From Eubacteriales bacterium mix99 (GTDB lineage: Bacteria > Bacillota > Clostridia > Caldicoprobacterales > DTU083): a stretch of DNA of 64,000 nt. Location of the stretch: positions 1,768,500 through 1,832,499 of the forward strand of contig CP121690.1 in assembly GCA_038396605.1 (NCBI GenBank), read 5' to 3'. A program made the position numbers and the translations under genes. This document shows, one piece after another, positions 13,337-23,635 of the stretch (position 1 is the stretch's first letter; every line of letters begins with the position of its first letter). Below the pieces are notes generated by a model. The model saw nothing but the letters and a program-made list of their open reading frames with translations, ran no database searches and had not been told where the DNA came from.

Positions 13337-13360
13337 ACAGGCATAGCAGAATATTGATAC

Positions 13361-13466
13361 CTTATCCAGAGAGGTGGAGGGATGGGCCCGATGAAACCCG
13401 GCAACCGCTTGATTGTTCAAGCCCGGTGCCAATTCCCACAAGATATTTATATCTTGAAAGATGAGG
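13361..13466 (+). ncRNA. SAM-I (S-box) riboswitch aptamer
   Basis: The S-box core is readable: CTTATCCAGAGAGGTGGAGG at the 5' side, GGGCCCGATGAAACCCGGCAA as internal loop region, GGTGCCAATTCC, and GAAAGATGAG closing the basal helix. It precedes metK and is followed by a terminator. By family knowledge, SAM binding stabilises the aptamer and permits the terminator, so metK is expressed when SAM is low. Confidence 0.95.
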
Positions 13467-13477
13467 ACAAGACAGGA

Positions 13478-17779: not shown

Positions 17780-18535
17780 ATGCGGAAGCGCATGAACTGG
17801 AGGCCGCTGCTGGATGCTGTGCTGGATATGATTTATCCCCGCATGGACTGCGTTCTTTGCGGGCAGCCTCTGGAAAAGGATGCCGTTCAGGGGATCTGCA
17901 GCAATTGTCTGGAGTTTTTGCCCTTTATCCGGGAGCCGAGGTGTTCGGTCTGTGGAAAACCCCTGGAGGAAACGGAAGGGACGAAGGTGACGGAGCAAAG
18001 GTATTGTCCGGACTGCCGGAGGTATTCTCATGATTTTGATCAGGCCCTGTCGGTATTTGAATTTTCCCTGTCAGTAAGGGAACTGATTCATCGATATAAA
18101 TATGGAAAAGAGTTCAGTCTGAGCCGGACTTTTGGTTTCTTTCTGTCGGAGTTGCTGCGGGAGTCCGGCTGGCAGGCCGATGGGATTGTTCCGGTACCGC
18201 TGCACAAAAACAGGCTGCGGTCCCGGGGCTTCAACCAGTCGGTCCTGCTGGGAGACTCCATTTCCGGACATCTTGGCATTCCCTGTATGGACCAGGTGCT
18301 GATCCGCAATATCGATACGAAAACCCAGACCGGATTCAACCGGCGGCAAAGGGCGGAAAATCTGAAAAACGCCTTTATCGTGAAGGACCCGGTACCCATC
18401 CGGGGCAAAAGCATCCTGCTGATCGACGACGTGTACACTACGGGAGCTACGGCAGACAGCTGCAGCCGTGTACTGCGGCGGGCCGGAGCCAAAGGAATTT
18501 ATCTGCTCACCATTGCCACGGGACGAAATGTATGA
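17780..18535 (+). CDS. comFC: ComF-family phosphoribosyltransferase-like protein
   Basis: 251 residues. The N-terminus has a zinc-binding region with CVLCGQPL, CSNCLEF, CSVCGKPL and CPDCRR. The C-terminal phosphoribosyltransferase fold carries ILLIDDVYTTGATADSCSRVL, the PRPP-binding signature. ComFC takes part in DNA uptake in competent bacteria and also occurs in non-competent ones. The ribosome binding site is not clear near ATG 17780 (GGGAGGGG is 28 nt upstream), so the true start could be a non-standard codon slightly earlier. The usual neighbours hpf-secA-prfB follow at a distance. Confidence 0.88.
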   Translation: MRKRMNWRPLLDAVLDMIYPRMDCVLCGQPLEKDAVQGICSNCLEFLPFIREPRCSVCGKPLEETEGTKVTEQRYCPDCRRYSHDFDQALSVFEFSLSVRELIHRYKYGKEFSLSRTFGFFLSELLRESGWQADGIVPVPLHKNRLRSRGFNQSVLLGDSISGHLGIPCMDQVLIRNIDTKTQTGFNRRQRAENLKNAFIVKDPVPIRGKSILLIDDVYTTGATADSCSRVLRRAGAKGIYLLTIATGRNV

Positions 18536-18632
18536 AAACAGCGGCATTGCCATTGCTGTCAGGCAGTTTTACTCAACCGTTGGTATATATAAATTAAAAT
18601 GCATTTTAATTTTGTAATTTGTGCTATAACTA

Positions 18633-18661
18633 TTGCTATCTGGCAATTATAGGGTTATAAT
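18633..18661 (+). promoter_or_regulatory. Promoter of the candidate structured RNA
   Basis: TTGCTA, 17-bp spacer, perfect TATAAT; the predicted start is near 18668, four bases before the closing helix of the RNA. Confidence 0.7.
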
Positions 18662-18667
18662 GAAAGC

Positions 18668-19018
18668 AGAGTTCTTTTCTTAGGTCTGTGGTTGAAAATC
18701 GATGCCAGTCGCAGGCGAAACGATCCACGTAAGTCGGAAAAATTCCGATGATCATGGTGCGGCTTAGAGGCAAGTCCGGCCTATAGTTTTGTTGACAGAT
18801 ATTCACGGTGGTTTCCAGTTTTCGAACATTGATTTCCTGTCCTCATGGTTTATTCTTACGACTCATGGAGCAGACGCAGGTTCCGAATTTGGCACTGTCC
18901 TGAAAGTTCTTCTCTTCAAAAATATAGTGAGAAGCAGTAGTGGGAGGGGTTATTCCCTGAGCGAGACTTCCTGACGGCGGGTGTGGGGGCAAAGACCAGG
19001 TCAGCTAAGATAAGAGCA
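18668..19018 (+). ncRNA. Candidate large structured RNA between comFC and the hpf-secA region (raiA-motif-like position)
   Basis: The 500-bp gap has no convincing ORF. A 5' segment UUCUUUUCUUAG (18672-18683) pairs with CUAAGAUAAGAG (19005-19016), 11 of 12 positions, which would close an RNA of about 345 nt right after a strong promoter. Inside lie hairpins TCGGAA-AAA-TTCCGA (18734-18748), CTTCTC/GAGAAG (18909-18934), AGGC/GCCT (18770-18785) and GGGA/TCCC near 18941. In Clostridia the comFC to hpf interval is where the raiA RNA motif is known; I could not match its consensus from memory, so the class name is a guess. It may also act as a 5' leader of the zinc-ribbon gene. Confidence 0.55.
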
Positions 19019-19052
19019 GTCATATCTTATATAAAGCGAGGGGATTCAATCC

Positions 19053-19331
19053 ATGTTCGAAGACAAAACGTTAGTCTGCAAGGAATGCGGCCAGGAGTTT
19101 GTATTCACTGCCGGTGAGCAGGAATTCTATGCAGAAAAGGGTTTCCAGAATGAGCCGGCCCGCTGCAAGAGTTGCCGTGATGAACGCAAGAACAAAAGGT
19201 CCAATGGCGGCAACCGACAGATGTACGATGCGATTTGCGCAGAGTGCGGAGCTCCGACTCAGGTACCCTTTGAACCCAGAAATGACAGACCAATATACTG
19301 CAATGCTTGTTATCAAGCCAGGAGAAGGTAA
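19053..19331 (+). CDS. Zinc-ribbon protein, 92 residues
   Basis: Begins MFEDKTLVCKECGQEF and has three CxxC pairs plus single ones: CKECG, CKSCRD, CAECGA, CNACYQ, forming two zinc ribbons of the zf-trcl/CxxC type. Such proteins are common in Clostridia, abundant and of unknown role, perhaps binding nucleic acid. GAGGGGAT stands before the ATG. A strong terminator follows, so the gene is monocistronic or cotranscribed with the RNA upstream. Confidence 0.8.
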   Translation: MFEDKTLVCKECGQEFVFTAGEQEFYAEKGFQNEPARCKSCRDERKNKRSNGGNRQMYDAICAECGAPTQVPFEPRNDRPIYCNACYQARRR

Positions 19332-19382
19332 TCCCCGAGCCAAGGGATCCTTATGTCAACATGGAAGAGGATTGGTCAAATC

Positions 19383-19412
19383 GCCCCGGACGTTTGTTCC
19401 GGGGCTTTTTTA
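19383..19412 (+). terminator. Intrinsic terminator after the zinc-ribbon gene
   Basis: GCCCCGGA, 7-nt loop, TCCGGGGC followed by seven T; 52 bp after the stop codon. Confidence 0.92.
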
Positions 19413-19565
19413 TTTGTCTGTTCATTGCAGAGCTTTGGGAATCGTTTGACATTTGCATTTTTTATGCCATTTTAATTTGTCGGATTCTATAAATATCCAG
19501 AGTCGCCATCGAATCCAGAGAGATATTTTGTTGTCAGAATATCTGTTCCTATAGGGATTTTCCAG

Positions 19566-19649
19566 TTATCCACACATAAAAGGCCATCACGGCAGGTTAT
19601 ACACAACTTTATCCACATTGTCCACAGCATGACTGTCCACATCTCCACA
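19566..19649 (+). repeat. Cluster of DnaA boxes
   Basis: Two perfect DnaA boxes TTATCCACA (19566-19574, 19609-19617) and near matches TTATACACA (19597-19605), TTGTCCACA (19618-19626), CTGTCCACA (19633-19641) and a weaker one ending at 19649 stand in the same orientation within 84 bp. A very AT-rich stretch follows at 19685-19752. The genes on both sides read in the same direction and dnaA/dnaN/rnpA are absent, so this looks more like a DnaA-binding cluster for titration or regulation than the chromosomal origin. Confidence 0.75.
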
Positions 19650-19808: not shown

Positions 19809-20585
19809 ATGAAAAAATCAAAATGGATGGTTGTCCTGGTTCTGATGTCGGCGATGGCATTTTCGCTGATCGGCTGCGGCAGCAGCACAACGGAGGATAC
19901 CATGGAGAAGATCAAAAAGAAGGGTGAGATTGTCCTGGGCACCAATGCGGCCTTTCCGCCCTTTGAGATGAGAAAGGGAGACGAGGTCATCGGTGTGGAT
20001 GCGGAAATCGCAAAGAAGATTGCGGATAAGCTGGGCGTGAAGCTGAAAGTGGAGGACATGGACTTTGACGGACTGATCAACGCCCTGAACGCAAAGCAGG
20101 TTGATTTTATCGCTGCCGGTCTTACTGTACGGCCGGATCGGGAGGAGCAGGTTCTTTTTACGGATAAATACTTCAAGGCGGTACAGAAGATCATTGTCCG
20201 GGAAGGCGACACGGAGATCAAGGGGGCGAAGGATCTGAAAGGCAAGGCCATTGGTGTACAGAAAGGCACGACCGGGGCAATTGTGGCGGAAGAGGATTAT
20301 ACGAAAAACGTTGTCCGGTTTGATAACGGCCCGGAAGCAGCCATTGATCTGAAGAACGGTCGGCTGGATGCGGTGCTGATTGACAATCTGCCTGCCCGGA
20401 TGATCGCCGAACAGAATCCCGGATTGGTTGTCCTGGACGAAAAGGCAGCAGACGACGAAGAGTATGCCATGGCGGTCCGCAAGAGCGATAAGGACCTTCA
20501 AAAGGTGATAAACGAGGTACTCAGTGAGCTGCAGTCCAGCAGCAGGATTGATGAATGGGTCGAGGAATATTCCTTCCTTCAATAG
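19809..20585 (+). CDS. Polar amino-acid ABC transporter, substrate-binding lipoprotein
   Basis: 258 residues with a type II signal peptide (VVLVLMSAMAFSLIGC, Cys at about residue 23) and a family 3 solute-binding domain: GTNAAFPPFEM, VIGVDAEIAKKIADKLG, DFDGLINALNAKQVDFIAAGLTV. It binds a polar amino acid outside the cell and delivers it to the permease encoded next. The exact ligand (Gln, Cys, Arg, His) cannot be told. First gene of a three-gene operon with its own promoter. Confidence 0.92.
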   Translation: MKKSKWMVVLVLMSAMAFSLIGCGSSTTEDTMEKIKKKGEIVLGTNAAFPPFEMRKGDEVIGVDAEIAKKIADKLGVKLKVEDMDFDGLINALNAKQVDFIAAGLTVRPDREEQVLFTDKYFKAVQKIIVREGDTEIKGAKDLKGKAIGVQKGTTGAIVAEEDYTKNVVRFDNGPEAAIDLKNGRLDAVLIDNLPARMIAEQNPGLVVLDEKAADDEEYAMAVRKSDKDLQKVINEVLSELQSSSRIDEWVEEYSFLQ

Positions 20586-20610
20586 ATAGGGAAGAACCGG
20601 GAAAGGAAAG

Positions 20611-21315
20611 ATGGTGAAGGGAATGAAGTATGCGGGAAACATCGTTTCCATGCTGTCCGATGAGATTTATGCCAACCTGATCCGGGAGAATCGCTATATG
20701 CTGTTTGTCAAAGGTCTGGGCATATCCGTGCAGCTGACATTGTATGCCGCAGTGATCGGCAGTGTCATCGGGCTGCTGATCGCACTGACCAGGCTGACCA
20801 ACAACAGGGTACTGAATGGGGTTGCAGAAAAGTACGTTGATATCATCCGGGGAACGCCGGTTGTGGTGCAGCTGCTGATCATCTATTTTGCTGTATTTGC
20901 CGCCACCGGTCTGCCGAAGGTCACCGTGGCTTCCATTGCATTCGGCATTAACAGCGGTGCCTATGTGGCGGAATTGATCCGTGCCGGGATACAGGCTGTG
21001 GACAGGGGCCAGATGGAGGCTGCCCGTTCCATCGGGCTGTCCTACTATCAGGGGATGCGTTATATTGTGATTCCCCAGGCGATCAAAAACATTCTGCCCG
21101 GTATGGGCAATGAGGTCATTGCCTTGTGGAAGGAAACAGCTATTGCCGGTTTCATTGGCTTGGATGATCTGATGCGCGGCGCGGAGATTGTCCGCAGCCG
21201 TACTTTTTCAAACTATACGCCTTATCTGGTCATCGCGGTGATCTATTTGTATATTACCGTATGCATGACCATGGTCCTGAACAAAGCGGAAAGGAGTATG
21301 AGGAAAAGTGATTAA
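20611..21315 (+). CDS. Polar amino-acid ABC transporter, permease
   Basis: 234 residues, His/Glu/Gln-type permease with about five helices. The EAA loop is [29 protein letters not shown], and [20 protein letters not shown] is the family's typical second-half motif. It starts 25 bp after the binding protein and its end overlaps the ATPase gene by 8 bp, so translation is coupled. It forms a homodimeric channel in the cytoplasmic membrane. Confidence 0.93.
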
Positions 21316-22030
21316 GGTCGTGGATCTTTATAAATCCTTCGGGAACCTTTCCGTACTGAAGGGCATTACCAATGAAGTCCGCAGGGGAGAAGTCGTTTGC
21401 ATCATCGGGCCCAGCGGTTCCGGGAAAAGCACGTTTTTAAGGTGCCTGAACATGCTGGAGGAACCCACTTCCGGAGAGGTTTTCATTGACGGCGTTTCTC
21501 TTACGGAGCAAAAGAAGGACATCAATAAGCTGCGGCAAAAGGTGGGAATGGTATTTCAGCAGTTTAATCTGTTTCCCCATATGACGGTATTGAATAACAT
21601 TACCATCGGGCCGGTCCGGGCAAAGGGAATGGACCGCGGGCAGGCAAAAGGCAGAGCGGTGGAACTTCTGCACAAGGTGGGACTGTCGGATAAAGTGGGT
21701 GCCTATCCCAATCAGCTTTCCGGCGGACAGAAGCAGCGGGTTGCCATTGCCAGGGCGCTGGCTATGGATCCTGAGGTCATGCTGTTTGATGAACCGACTT
21801 CTGCCCTGGATCCGGAGATGGTGGGCGAAGTACTGGCCGTGATGAAAAAGCTGGTACTGGAAGGGATGACCATGGTTGTGGTAACCCATGAAATGGCCTT
21901 TGCACGGGAAGTGGGAGACCGGATCCTGTTTATGGACGAAGGGATTATCGCAGAGGAAAATACTCCCGATGCCCTTTTCAATCATCCTGTAAATGACCGC
22001 ACCAGATCTTTTCTGAGCAAGGTGCTGTAG
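21308..22030 (+). CDS. Polar amino-acid ABC transporter, ATP-binding protein
   Basis: 240 residues, GTG start overlapping the permease end. Walker [16 protein letters not shown], signature [15 protein letters not shown], Walker [18 protein letters not shown]-loop [11 protein letters not shown]: the GlnQ/HisP type. It powers import of the amino acid bound by the lipoprotein. A small membrane protein gene follows after 10 bp and may be cotranscribed. Confidence 0.95.
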
Positions 22031-22653: not shown

Positions 22654-22827
22654 TTATGACCTGGTTCCCTTTTCGGAGAGATCAATATAGGCAGAAATGA
22701 GACCATCCAACTCGTTGCTCATTCTGAGGATTTCGTCGGAACTCAGGTCTTCCATATGGAGCGAAATCAGCTGATTCAGTTCCTGACGTTTTTGCTGGAT
22801 CCGGGTCTCCAGTTCCTTCAATTCCAA
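22654..22827 (-). CDS. Spo0E-like aspartyl-phosphate phosphatase
   Basis: With the TTG start at 22827 behind AAAGGAGGAGA the product has 57 residues, the normal size for the family. Two helices are predicted with the motif SNELDGLISAY, corresponding to the SQELD signature of Spo0E, which dephosphorylates Spo0A~P and delays sporulation. Longer versions that begin further upstream ignore the ribosome binding site. It stands alone, convergent with the upstream membrane protein gene. It supports a spore-forming host. Confidence 0.85.
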   Translation of the reverse strand: MELKELETRIQQKRQELNQLISLHMEDLSSDEILRMSNELDGLISAYIDLSEKGTRS

Positions 22828-23092
22828 TCTATCTCCTCCTTTCTGCCTATAGTCTGACATATTTTCATATCGATGTGTCGTTTTCCGCAAAACTAGTGAG
22901 AACCTGACAAAAGAACAGCAGAATCGACAGGATATGTCAATGCTGCAATGGCATATCCCATAGAAATGTTTGGGAAAGTGCAGATGGGGTAAAAATAAAA
23001 TGACGGAAGAATGCCGGCTTTCTCCTGTGAAACAGGAATTTTTCCGTTGACGTCGAATAGATACCTACAATGGATGAAAGGAGCTGACCAGC

Positions 23093-23635
23093 ATGAAGAT
23101 CATTATAAGTGGGAAAAATCTTGAGATCACGGACGCACTGAGGAATCAGATCAACAAAAAGGTCAGGAAACTGGAACGCTATTTTGAACCGGAAACGGAA
23201 GTGCAGGTCACTTTGTCGGTTGAAAAAAGCCGGCATATTGTTGAGGTTACCATTCCGTACAAGGGAATGCTGTTCCGTGCAGAGGAATCCACTGATGATA
23301 TGTACGCATCCATCGATAAGGTTCTGGACAAACTGGAACATCAGATTCACCGTTACCGGACGAAATTGGAGCGGAGTTTCCGCAAGGGGGCTTTTAAGGA
23401 CCAAAAGCCACTGTTCAGTGATGAACCCCTGTTTGAAGATGGCGCCAGGGAGCTCAGGGTTGTCCGCACCAAGCGTTTTGCCGTCAAGCCCATGTCGGTT
23501 GAGGAAGCCCTCATGCAGATGGACTTGCTGGGACATAGCTTTTTTGTGTTTACCAATGCGGAAAGCGGAGAAACCAATGTGGTATACAAAAGGCGGGACG
23601 GCAGATACGGGCTGATTGAACCGGAATTTGACTGA
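23093..23635 (+). CDS. hpf: Ribosome hibernation promoting factor, long form
   Basis: 180 residues. The N-terminal S30AE domain (IISGKNLEITDALRNQINKKVRKLERYF) binds the small ribosomal subunit. The C-terminal domain (VRTKRFAVKPMSVEEALMQMDLLGHSFFVF) drives 100S dimer formation, as in the long Hpf of Gram-positive bacteria. Located in the conserved order hpf-secA-prfB. GAAAGGAG stands before the ATG. About 265 bp upstream, up to spo0E, show no clear ORF or site. Confidence 0.95.
   Translation: MKIIISGKNLEITDALRNQINKKVRKLERYFEPETEVQVTLSVEKSRHIVEVTIPYKGMLFRAEESTDDMYASIDKVLDKLEHQIHRYRTKLERSFRKGAFKDQKPLFSDEPLFEDGARELRVVRTKRFAVKPMSVEEALMQMDLLGHSFFVFTNAESGETNVVYKRRDGRYGLIEPEFD

Follow-up and report, generated by a model that had tools for sequence, protein, structure and literature searches.

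raiA RNA, also known as ModT, is widespread, and its biochemical mechanism has not yet been worked out. For another large conserved RNA, OLE RNA, a protein partner has been described, namely OapA. In C. difficile, ModT is very abundant and stable, is transcribed from a housekeeping promoter, acts in trans as growth comes to an end and has two termination sites near its 3′ end (excerpts of PMC11706538). According to the same excerpts, which cite Soares et al., comFC lies upstream of raiA RNA in 74% of cases and the raiA gene follows in 66%; in C. difficile the downstream neighbour is a PTS antiterminator gene instead. Genes for periplasmic binding proteins are another frequent downstream neighbour (excerpts of PMC11477304). 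Structurally, two pseudoknots have been described, pk-1 with seven consecutive pairs and pk-2 with two (excerpts of PMC11751092).

Here we analysed a 64,000-nt stretch of the Eubacteriales bacterium mix99 genome (the window). Its raiA RNA resembles the described raiA / ModT RNAs (RF03072) in extending over model positions 1–209, in its core letters, closing helix and pk-1, in the comF-like gene upstream, in the promoter-like site and in being the one match of its genome. It differs from the usual raiA / ModT RNA in three respects: a 135-nt insert sits in the variable hairpin, a zf_Tbcl gene follows 39 nt behind the RNA with no intervening terminator-like site, and hpf is 4.1 kb away, behind an amino-acid importer.

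Identity and fold of the RNA

An Infernal search against all Rfam families, a check that an earlier reading of the sequence alone had proposed with the raiA model (RF03072) in mind, matched RF03072 at 18675–19013 (+) with 162.6 bits (gathering score 101.3, exceeded by 61 bits) and an E-value of 7e-41. The match covers model positions 1–209 of 209, is not truncated and is the single RF03072 match in the whole 3.13-Mb genome. The features of the RNA are, in window positions:

18671–19017, + strand: raiA (ModT) RNA including the full closing helix (RF03072 match and covariation)
18671–18683, + strand: 5′ arm of the closing helix P1 (12 of 13 pairs with 19005–19017; own versus swapped arms)
19005–19017, + strand: 3′ arm of P1 (12 of 13 pairs with 18671–18683; own versus swapped arms)
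18707–18713, + strand: 5′ half of pk-1, AGUCGCA in the P3 loop (7 of 7 pairs with 18758–18764, one of them G-U)
18758–18764, + strand: 3′ half of pk-1, UGCGGCU in the pk-loop (pairs with 18707–18713)
18788–18922, + strand: 135-nt insert, located in the variable hairpin that follows the pk-loop (RF03072 alignment; long in family f1, shorter in family f3)

Judged by the model match and the covariation of its helices, the structured RNA is an intact, full-length raiA (ModT) RNA. That is, the window adds an ordinary member to a known family, an RNA kind already described. The sequence-only reading had held that the element might be raiA RNA, which proved correct, or otherwise a new class, which the full-length match together with the covariation excludes. 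We regard an RNA class unrelated to raiA as vanishingly improbable: all that speaks for such a class is that the minimum-energy fold of the single sequence is not the Rfam structure, and it is contradicted by the full-length match 61 bits over the gathering score, the conserved core letters and the pairing of the pseudoknot. It was rejected on the RF03072 match and the paired 33-sequence alignment described below.

Folding energy, tried as evidence for a structured RNA, gave no support and was discarded: the minimum free energy of −104.3 kcal/mol is not above chance (z = +0.57), with an equal or better fold in 73 of 100 shuffles. The RNA is more than chance because of the family match (E 7e-41) and the covariation, not because of folding energy.

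P1 reaches beyond both ends of the Rfam match, out to 18671 and 19017, and contains a single U-U mismatch at 18677/19011; the long closing helix with 11 of 12 pairs that had been spotted in the letters is essentially this helix. Its covariation, also suggested for analysis at that stage, was assessed by pairing each 5′ arm with its own 3′ arm and with every other 3′ arm. Across 75 distinct arm pairs, own-arm duplexes reached a mean of −12.5 kcal/mol versus −5.4 kcal/mol for swapped ones, and none of 2,000 permutations was as good. A closing helix without covariation, which the sequence-only reading had named among its grounds for refutation, is not what the comparison shows. As for the internal pairing, direct projection of the Rfam alignment gives 52 standard pairs of 57. 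After the four outer closing pairs had been added and one hairpin re-registered by hand, 58 of 61 structure pairs were standard.

We then aligned 33 raiA RNAs, chosen from 76 distinct ones located by motif. In this alignment 89.6% of the cells pair versus 74.1 ± 0.6% in shuffles, a count from which four poorly supported pairs had been removed (85.3% with them). Two-sided changes numbered 328 versus 107 ± 10 in shuffles (0 of 500 as good) and affected 36 of the 57 pairs (25.6 ± 1.7 in shuffles); with a structure taken over from Rfam and rows that are related to one another, these shuffle figures are not strict probabilities. Sliding the structure along the alignment lowered the paired cells to 31–44%. 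In helix 1, two-sided change was seen in 12 of 16 pairs, with 80.3% of the cells paired. In the window, pk-1 was placed by its letters onto the published description (excerpts of PMC11751092); its alignment columns, 38–44 with 95–101, were paired in 97% of the cells of the 33 sequences. For pk-2, the pairs U18755-A18991 and G18756-C18990 are possible as traced by eye, two pairs being beyond statistics.

Outside families f1 and f3, the raiA RNAs among the 76 measure 204–248 nt, arms included, and the RNA in the window is long for its family because of the 135-nt insert. Folded separately, the region 18795–18925 gave no signal (z +0.70), and the insert varies in length and sequence; it was therefore rejected as a separate conserved element. 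No gene is apparent inside the RNA, in agreement with the sequence-only reading: only two open reading frames of at least 50 aa overlap it, one of 56 aa (−) and one of 61 aa (+).

Gene neighbourhood and the distance to hpf

In the window the gene order is metK behind a SAM riboswitch, recD2, comF-like, raiA RNA, zf_Tbcl, importer, a gene for a 195-aa protein, a Spo0E-like gene in the opposite orientation, hpf, secA and prfB, where metK, secA and prfB are tentative names, taken in part from the earlier reading. The 195-aa protein between importer and hpf matched no family. The neighbours that bear on the raiA comparison are:

17780–18535, + strand: comF-like gene, the usual upstream neighbour of raiA RNA (DZR_2 51.8 bits, over cut-off; TIGR00201 comF E 2e-34, 119 bits, under its cut-off of 233.55)
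19809–22030, + strand: ABC importer of the polar amino-acid type, with binding protein, permease and ATPase, between zf_Tbcl and hpf (family scans; same order in relatives)
23093–23635, + strand: hpf, long form, the 'raiA' gene (PF02482, PF16321 and TIGR00741, over cut-off)

Two further elements were recorded along this stretch. The SAM riboswitch (RF00162, 94.2 bits) lies at 13359–13467, upstream of the metK-like reading frame, and the Spo0E-like gene (PF09388) at 22654–22890 (−), between importer and hpf.

The start of hpf lies 4.08 kb beyond the end of the Rfam match, on the same strand, and hpf is not the next gene downstream. The sequence-only reading had concluded that the RNA, if it was raiA, would not be the hpf 5′ leader; this holds here, but it is no novelty, as such cases are already in print. 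Where the available stretch was long enough, importer, 195-aa protein and hpf also followed in two relatives (L139 and L140). In a genome of another family (G235) the order is comF, RNA, zf_Tbcl, hpf and secA, and the importer is absent; it is thus the importer that separates hpf from the RNA in the window. Counting only genomes with hpf among the matches listed on the same contig, 32 of 40 raiA genomes had it on the strand of the RNA and no more than 1.5 kb downstream (from a total of 53, 8 had no hpf among the matches listed and 5 had it on another contig). Distance from hpf is therefore a minority state of raiA RNA, but not a rare one. comFC upstream and hpf as the next gene downstream are both usual, and neither is required.

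The importer itself fits the periplasmic-binding-protein neighbours described in the excerpts of PMC11477304, since a binding-protein-dependent importer also lies downstream of the RNA in the window. Unlike in those cases, the first gene here is zf_Tbcl and not a binding protein.

The interval between zf_Tbcl and importer holds some observations of its own. At 19566–19617 we noted three DnaA-box-like sites in one orientation (TTATCCACA, TTATACACA, TTATCCACA). The exact TTATNCACA occurs five times in the window versus 1.8 expected, and 8 of 100 shuffles reach five. Looser sites, three to five per interval and mostly in gene orientation, were present in 11 of 12 hand-picked loci (11 loci of the order including the window, and one of a neighbour family; L130 had none), and the genome contains four overlapping or close-pair matches. 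In one genome (G059, L131:3928–4082), a TwoAYGGAY RNA (RF01731, 51.9 bits versus a gathering score of 43) lies between zf_Tbcl and importer.

The zinc-finger gene and the presumed transcription of the RNA

Three features frame the presumed transcription unit:

18633–18661, + strand: promoter-like site of the sigma-70/sigma-A type, TTGCTA-17-TATAAT (10 of 12 consensus matches)
19053–19331, + strand: zf_Tbcl + zf_Tbcl_2 gene for a 92-aa CxxC-x17-CxxC protein (PF13451 89 bits, PF23477 74 bits, TIGR04272 70.7 bits, all over cut-offs)
19383–19405, + strand: terminator-like site after the zf_Tbcl gene (stem of 8 pairs, then T6; the only one in 18500–19500)

The promoter-like site ends 13 nt 5′ of the Rfam match, and a consensus-like promoter right before the helix had indeed been pointed out earlier. 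The surrounding kilobase contains three such sites versus 1.4 ± 1.2 in shuffles, so that the site alone is weak evidence; a TATAAT-like box stands at the matching place in most of 12 aligned loci. For terminator-like sites, the one found in 18500–19500 compares with 1.1 ± 1.1 in shuffles, a count not above chance, and the same scan found none in the 39-nt gap between RNA and zf_Tbcl start.

Observed here are the family match, the intact and conserved fold, the single match, the promoter-like and terminator-like sequences and the synteny; expression, read-through, processing and function we infer as follows. The raiA RNA would be made from its own housekeeping-type promoter and would fold into the conserved core with its pseudoknot. 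Since no terminator-like site follows the RNA, transcription most likely continues through zf_Tbcl until it reaches the terminator-like site at 19383. Judged by this arrangement, the zf_Tbcl gene is probably co-transcribed with the RNA. The mature RNA would be cut out of, or trimmed back from, the raiA–zf_Tbcl transcript. Acting in trans, it would influence how cells pass from growth into stationary phase and sporulation, as published for C. difficile and C. acetobutylicum. We consider this reading likely, that is, an ordinary, trans-acting raiA RNA with its own promoter, read-through into zf_Tbcl and subsequent processing. The two termination sites near the RNA 3′ end in C. difficile, unlike the situation here, count against it, as do a folding energy no better than in shuffles and numbers of promoter-like and terminator-like sites that do not clearly exceed those in shuffles. 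In addition, about 100 nt separate RNA and gene in family f20, with T-rich stretches seen by eye in some of its genomes; read-through therefore need not be general.

The zf_Tbcl gene encodes a two-domain treble-clef protein and starts 39 nt after the Rfam match. The sequence-only reading had listed it, as a zinc-ribbon gene, among the elements separating the RNA from hpf. More to the point, it immediately follows the RNA, a place kept in 5 of 15 raiA-bearing families of a class sample. Among 30 genomes of the order, zf_Tbcl was directly downstream in all 18 raiA-positive ones (17 over cut-off; the 18th match is a fragment at a contig end). Seen from the gene, 51 of the 80 nearest zf_Tbcl loci in public genomes carried a raiA RNA immediately before the gene, and in all 51 the two shared a strand. 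These 80 are the best of 591 confirmed relatives and not a random sample, and at least 16 of the 51 linked raiA sequences were in the search model; 47 of them were found independently by motif. The motif AGGTCAG ends 39–54 nt before the zf_Tbcl start codon in 44 of the 47 motif-positive loci, and 48 nt before it in the window.

The tight link would also suit a cis-acting leader that controls how zf_Tbcl is translated or transcribed, perhaps under feedback from the zinc-finger protein; in Rfam, RF03072 bears the type label riboswitch / cis-regulatory leader. The near-constant spacing of AGGTCAG, the shared strand, the lack of a terminator-like site between RNA and gene in the window and the strong conservation of the ribosome-binding stretch (12 aligned loci, four families) all speak for such a leader. 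We nevertheless consider it unlikely, given that zf_Tbcl_2 is not adjacent in 34 of 53 raiA genomes, 30 of which have no match at all, and that the trans complementation published for two other species argues against a riboswitch (excerpts of PMC11706538). Moreover, inspection by eye revealed no pairing with the ribosome-binding site. As to that site, the stretch AAAG[C/T]GAGGGGATT...ATCC before the ATG (19032–19052) shows more conservation in the 12 aligned loci of four families than a Shine-Dalgarno sequence alone would call for, and a small hairpin between its GGAT and ATCC is conceivable.

A ribonucleoprotein in which zf_Tbcl binds the raiA RNA, with the gene order coupling the synthesis of both, would be compatible with the preferred reading of a trans-acting, processed RNA. 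The linkage given above argues for it (5 of 15 raiA-bearing families, 18 of 18 raiA-positive genomes of the order, 51 of the best 80 of 591 loci), as does in-cell DMS probing of ModT, which suggests a bound protein (excerpts of PMC11706538). In this respect the pair would resemble OLE RNA and OapA, which the same excerpts mention, in combining a large conserved RNA with a protein partner. OapA, however, is a described partner of OLE, whereas zf_Tbcl is not obligate and would be a candidate partner only. In a class sample of 243 genomes at least 90% complete, searched with stricter filters, 53 had raiA RNA and 190 did not. A zf_Tbcl_2 domain lay 195–299 nt behind the raiA RNA on the same strand in 19 of the 53, spread over 5 of 15 raiA-bearing families. 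At genome level there was no co-occurrence in this sample, with zf_Tbcl_2 in 23 of 53 raiA-positive versus 74 of 190 raiA-negative genomes, and four f22 genomes carry both RNA and zf_Tbcl_2 unlinked. These numbers, with the 30 of 53 raiA genomes that had no zf_Tbcl_2 match, count against an obligate partnership, which we dropped, and we give binding of zf_Tbcl to the RNA only a small probability. A link between raiA RNA and a zinc-finger gene was not found in the literature searched; the main synteny study (Soares et al.) lay outside that search and may well report it.

The place of the RNA in sister families

RF03072 was detected in none of the 7 genomes of family f2 (Caldicoprobacteraceae, which by taxonomy includes Caldicoprobacter) and in none of the 4 genomes of family f4 of the same order. 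zf_Tbcl is present in 5 of 7 f2 and 3 of 4 f4 genomes, and there the gene is still preceded by about 230–380 nt of noncoding sequence with a promoter-like site. No comF match was obtained in the sister-family loci L128–L130.

In f4, the noncoding stretch is related to raiA by sequence: compared with f3 raiA, genome G029 scored 216 (shuffles 89 ± 14, 0 of 300 as good), and G028 scored 196 against raiA (shuffles 108 ± 18, 0 of 300). In the remaining f4-to-raiA comparisons, 0 to 3 of 300 shuffles were as good. The invariant raiA core is largely gone. By these alignments, the f4 stretch (L152, L154 and L174) is a decayed or remodelled raiA RNA before zf_Tbcl, sequence-related and without an RF03072 match.

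In f2, none of 8 comparisons of the corresponding stretch with f4, f3 and the window was significant, as between 35 and 221 of 300 shuffles scored equally well. It could not be assigned to raiA by model either: RF03072 was absent from all 7 genomes and gave no match up to E 5 in L128 and L129, and a raiA model built from the clade had no match over the f2 RNA, the matches listed being short hairpins. In five loci (L177–L181; genomes G006, G007, G008, G003 and G002), a promoter-led RNA of about 370 nt precedes zf_Tbcl; the two loci scanned against Rfam gave no match for it. Its consensus energy was −86.4 versus −35.9 ± 4.5 in column shuffles (0 of 150), and compensated pairs numbered 20 versus 11.3 ± 3.1 (0 of 150), figures that come from five sequences of two genera, with the structure taken from the same alignment and dinucleotides lost on column shuffling. 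Further pair types were not above shuffles (335 of 500). As far as this consensus fold indicates, f2 thus has a different, strongly structured RNA of about 370 nt at the place of the raiA RNA, which may be raiA RNA remodelled, or a replacement. A model of the f2 RNA, run on 30 genomes of the order, recovered its five source genomes and, in G029, one weak match of 27.3 bits that covers 75 nt immediately ahead of the zf_Tbcl domain. In the class sample it matched 4 of 243 genomes, three of its five sources and G029. A wide distribution of the f2 RNA was rejected, the model finding nothing convincing beyond f2.

A broader scenario would join these observations. In part of the Clostridia, raiA RNA and zf_Tbcl might constitute a transcription unit of ancient origin, with the protein binding or maturing the RNA; in Caldicoprobacteraceae, the RNA half would have been remodelled beyond recognition or replaced by the RNA of about 370 nt, and the gene would mark hidden raiA-like RNAs. 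We regard this scenario as doubtful. What the comparison does offer is a concrete lead, namely a small zinc-finger gene that several families keep at a nearly constant distance behind raiA RNA, together with sister lineages where zf_Tbcl stays while the RNA has apparently decayed or been exchanged. With this linkage, and with sister lineages that keep the gene, the question of a protein partner for raiA RNA becomes directly testable.
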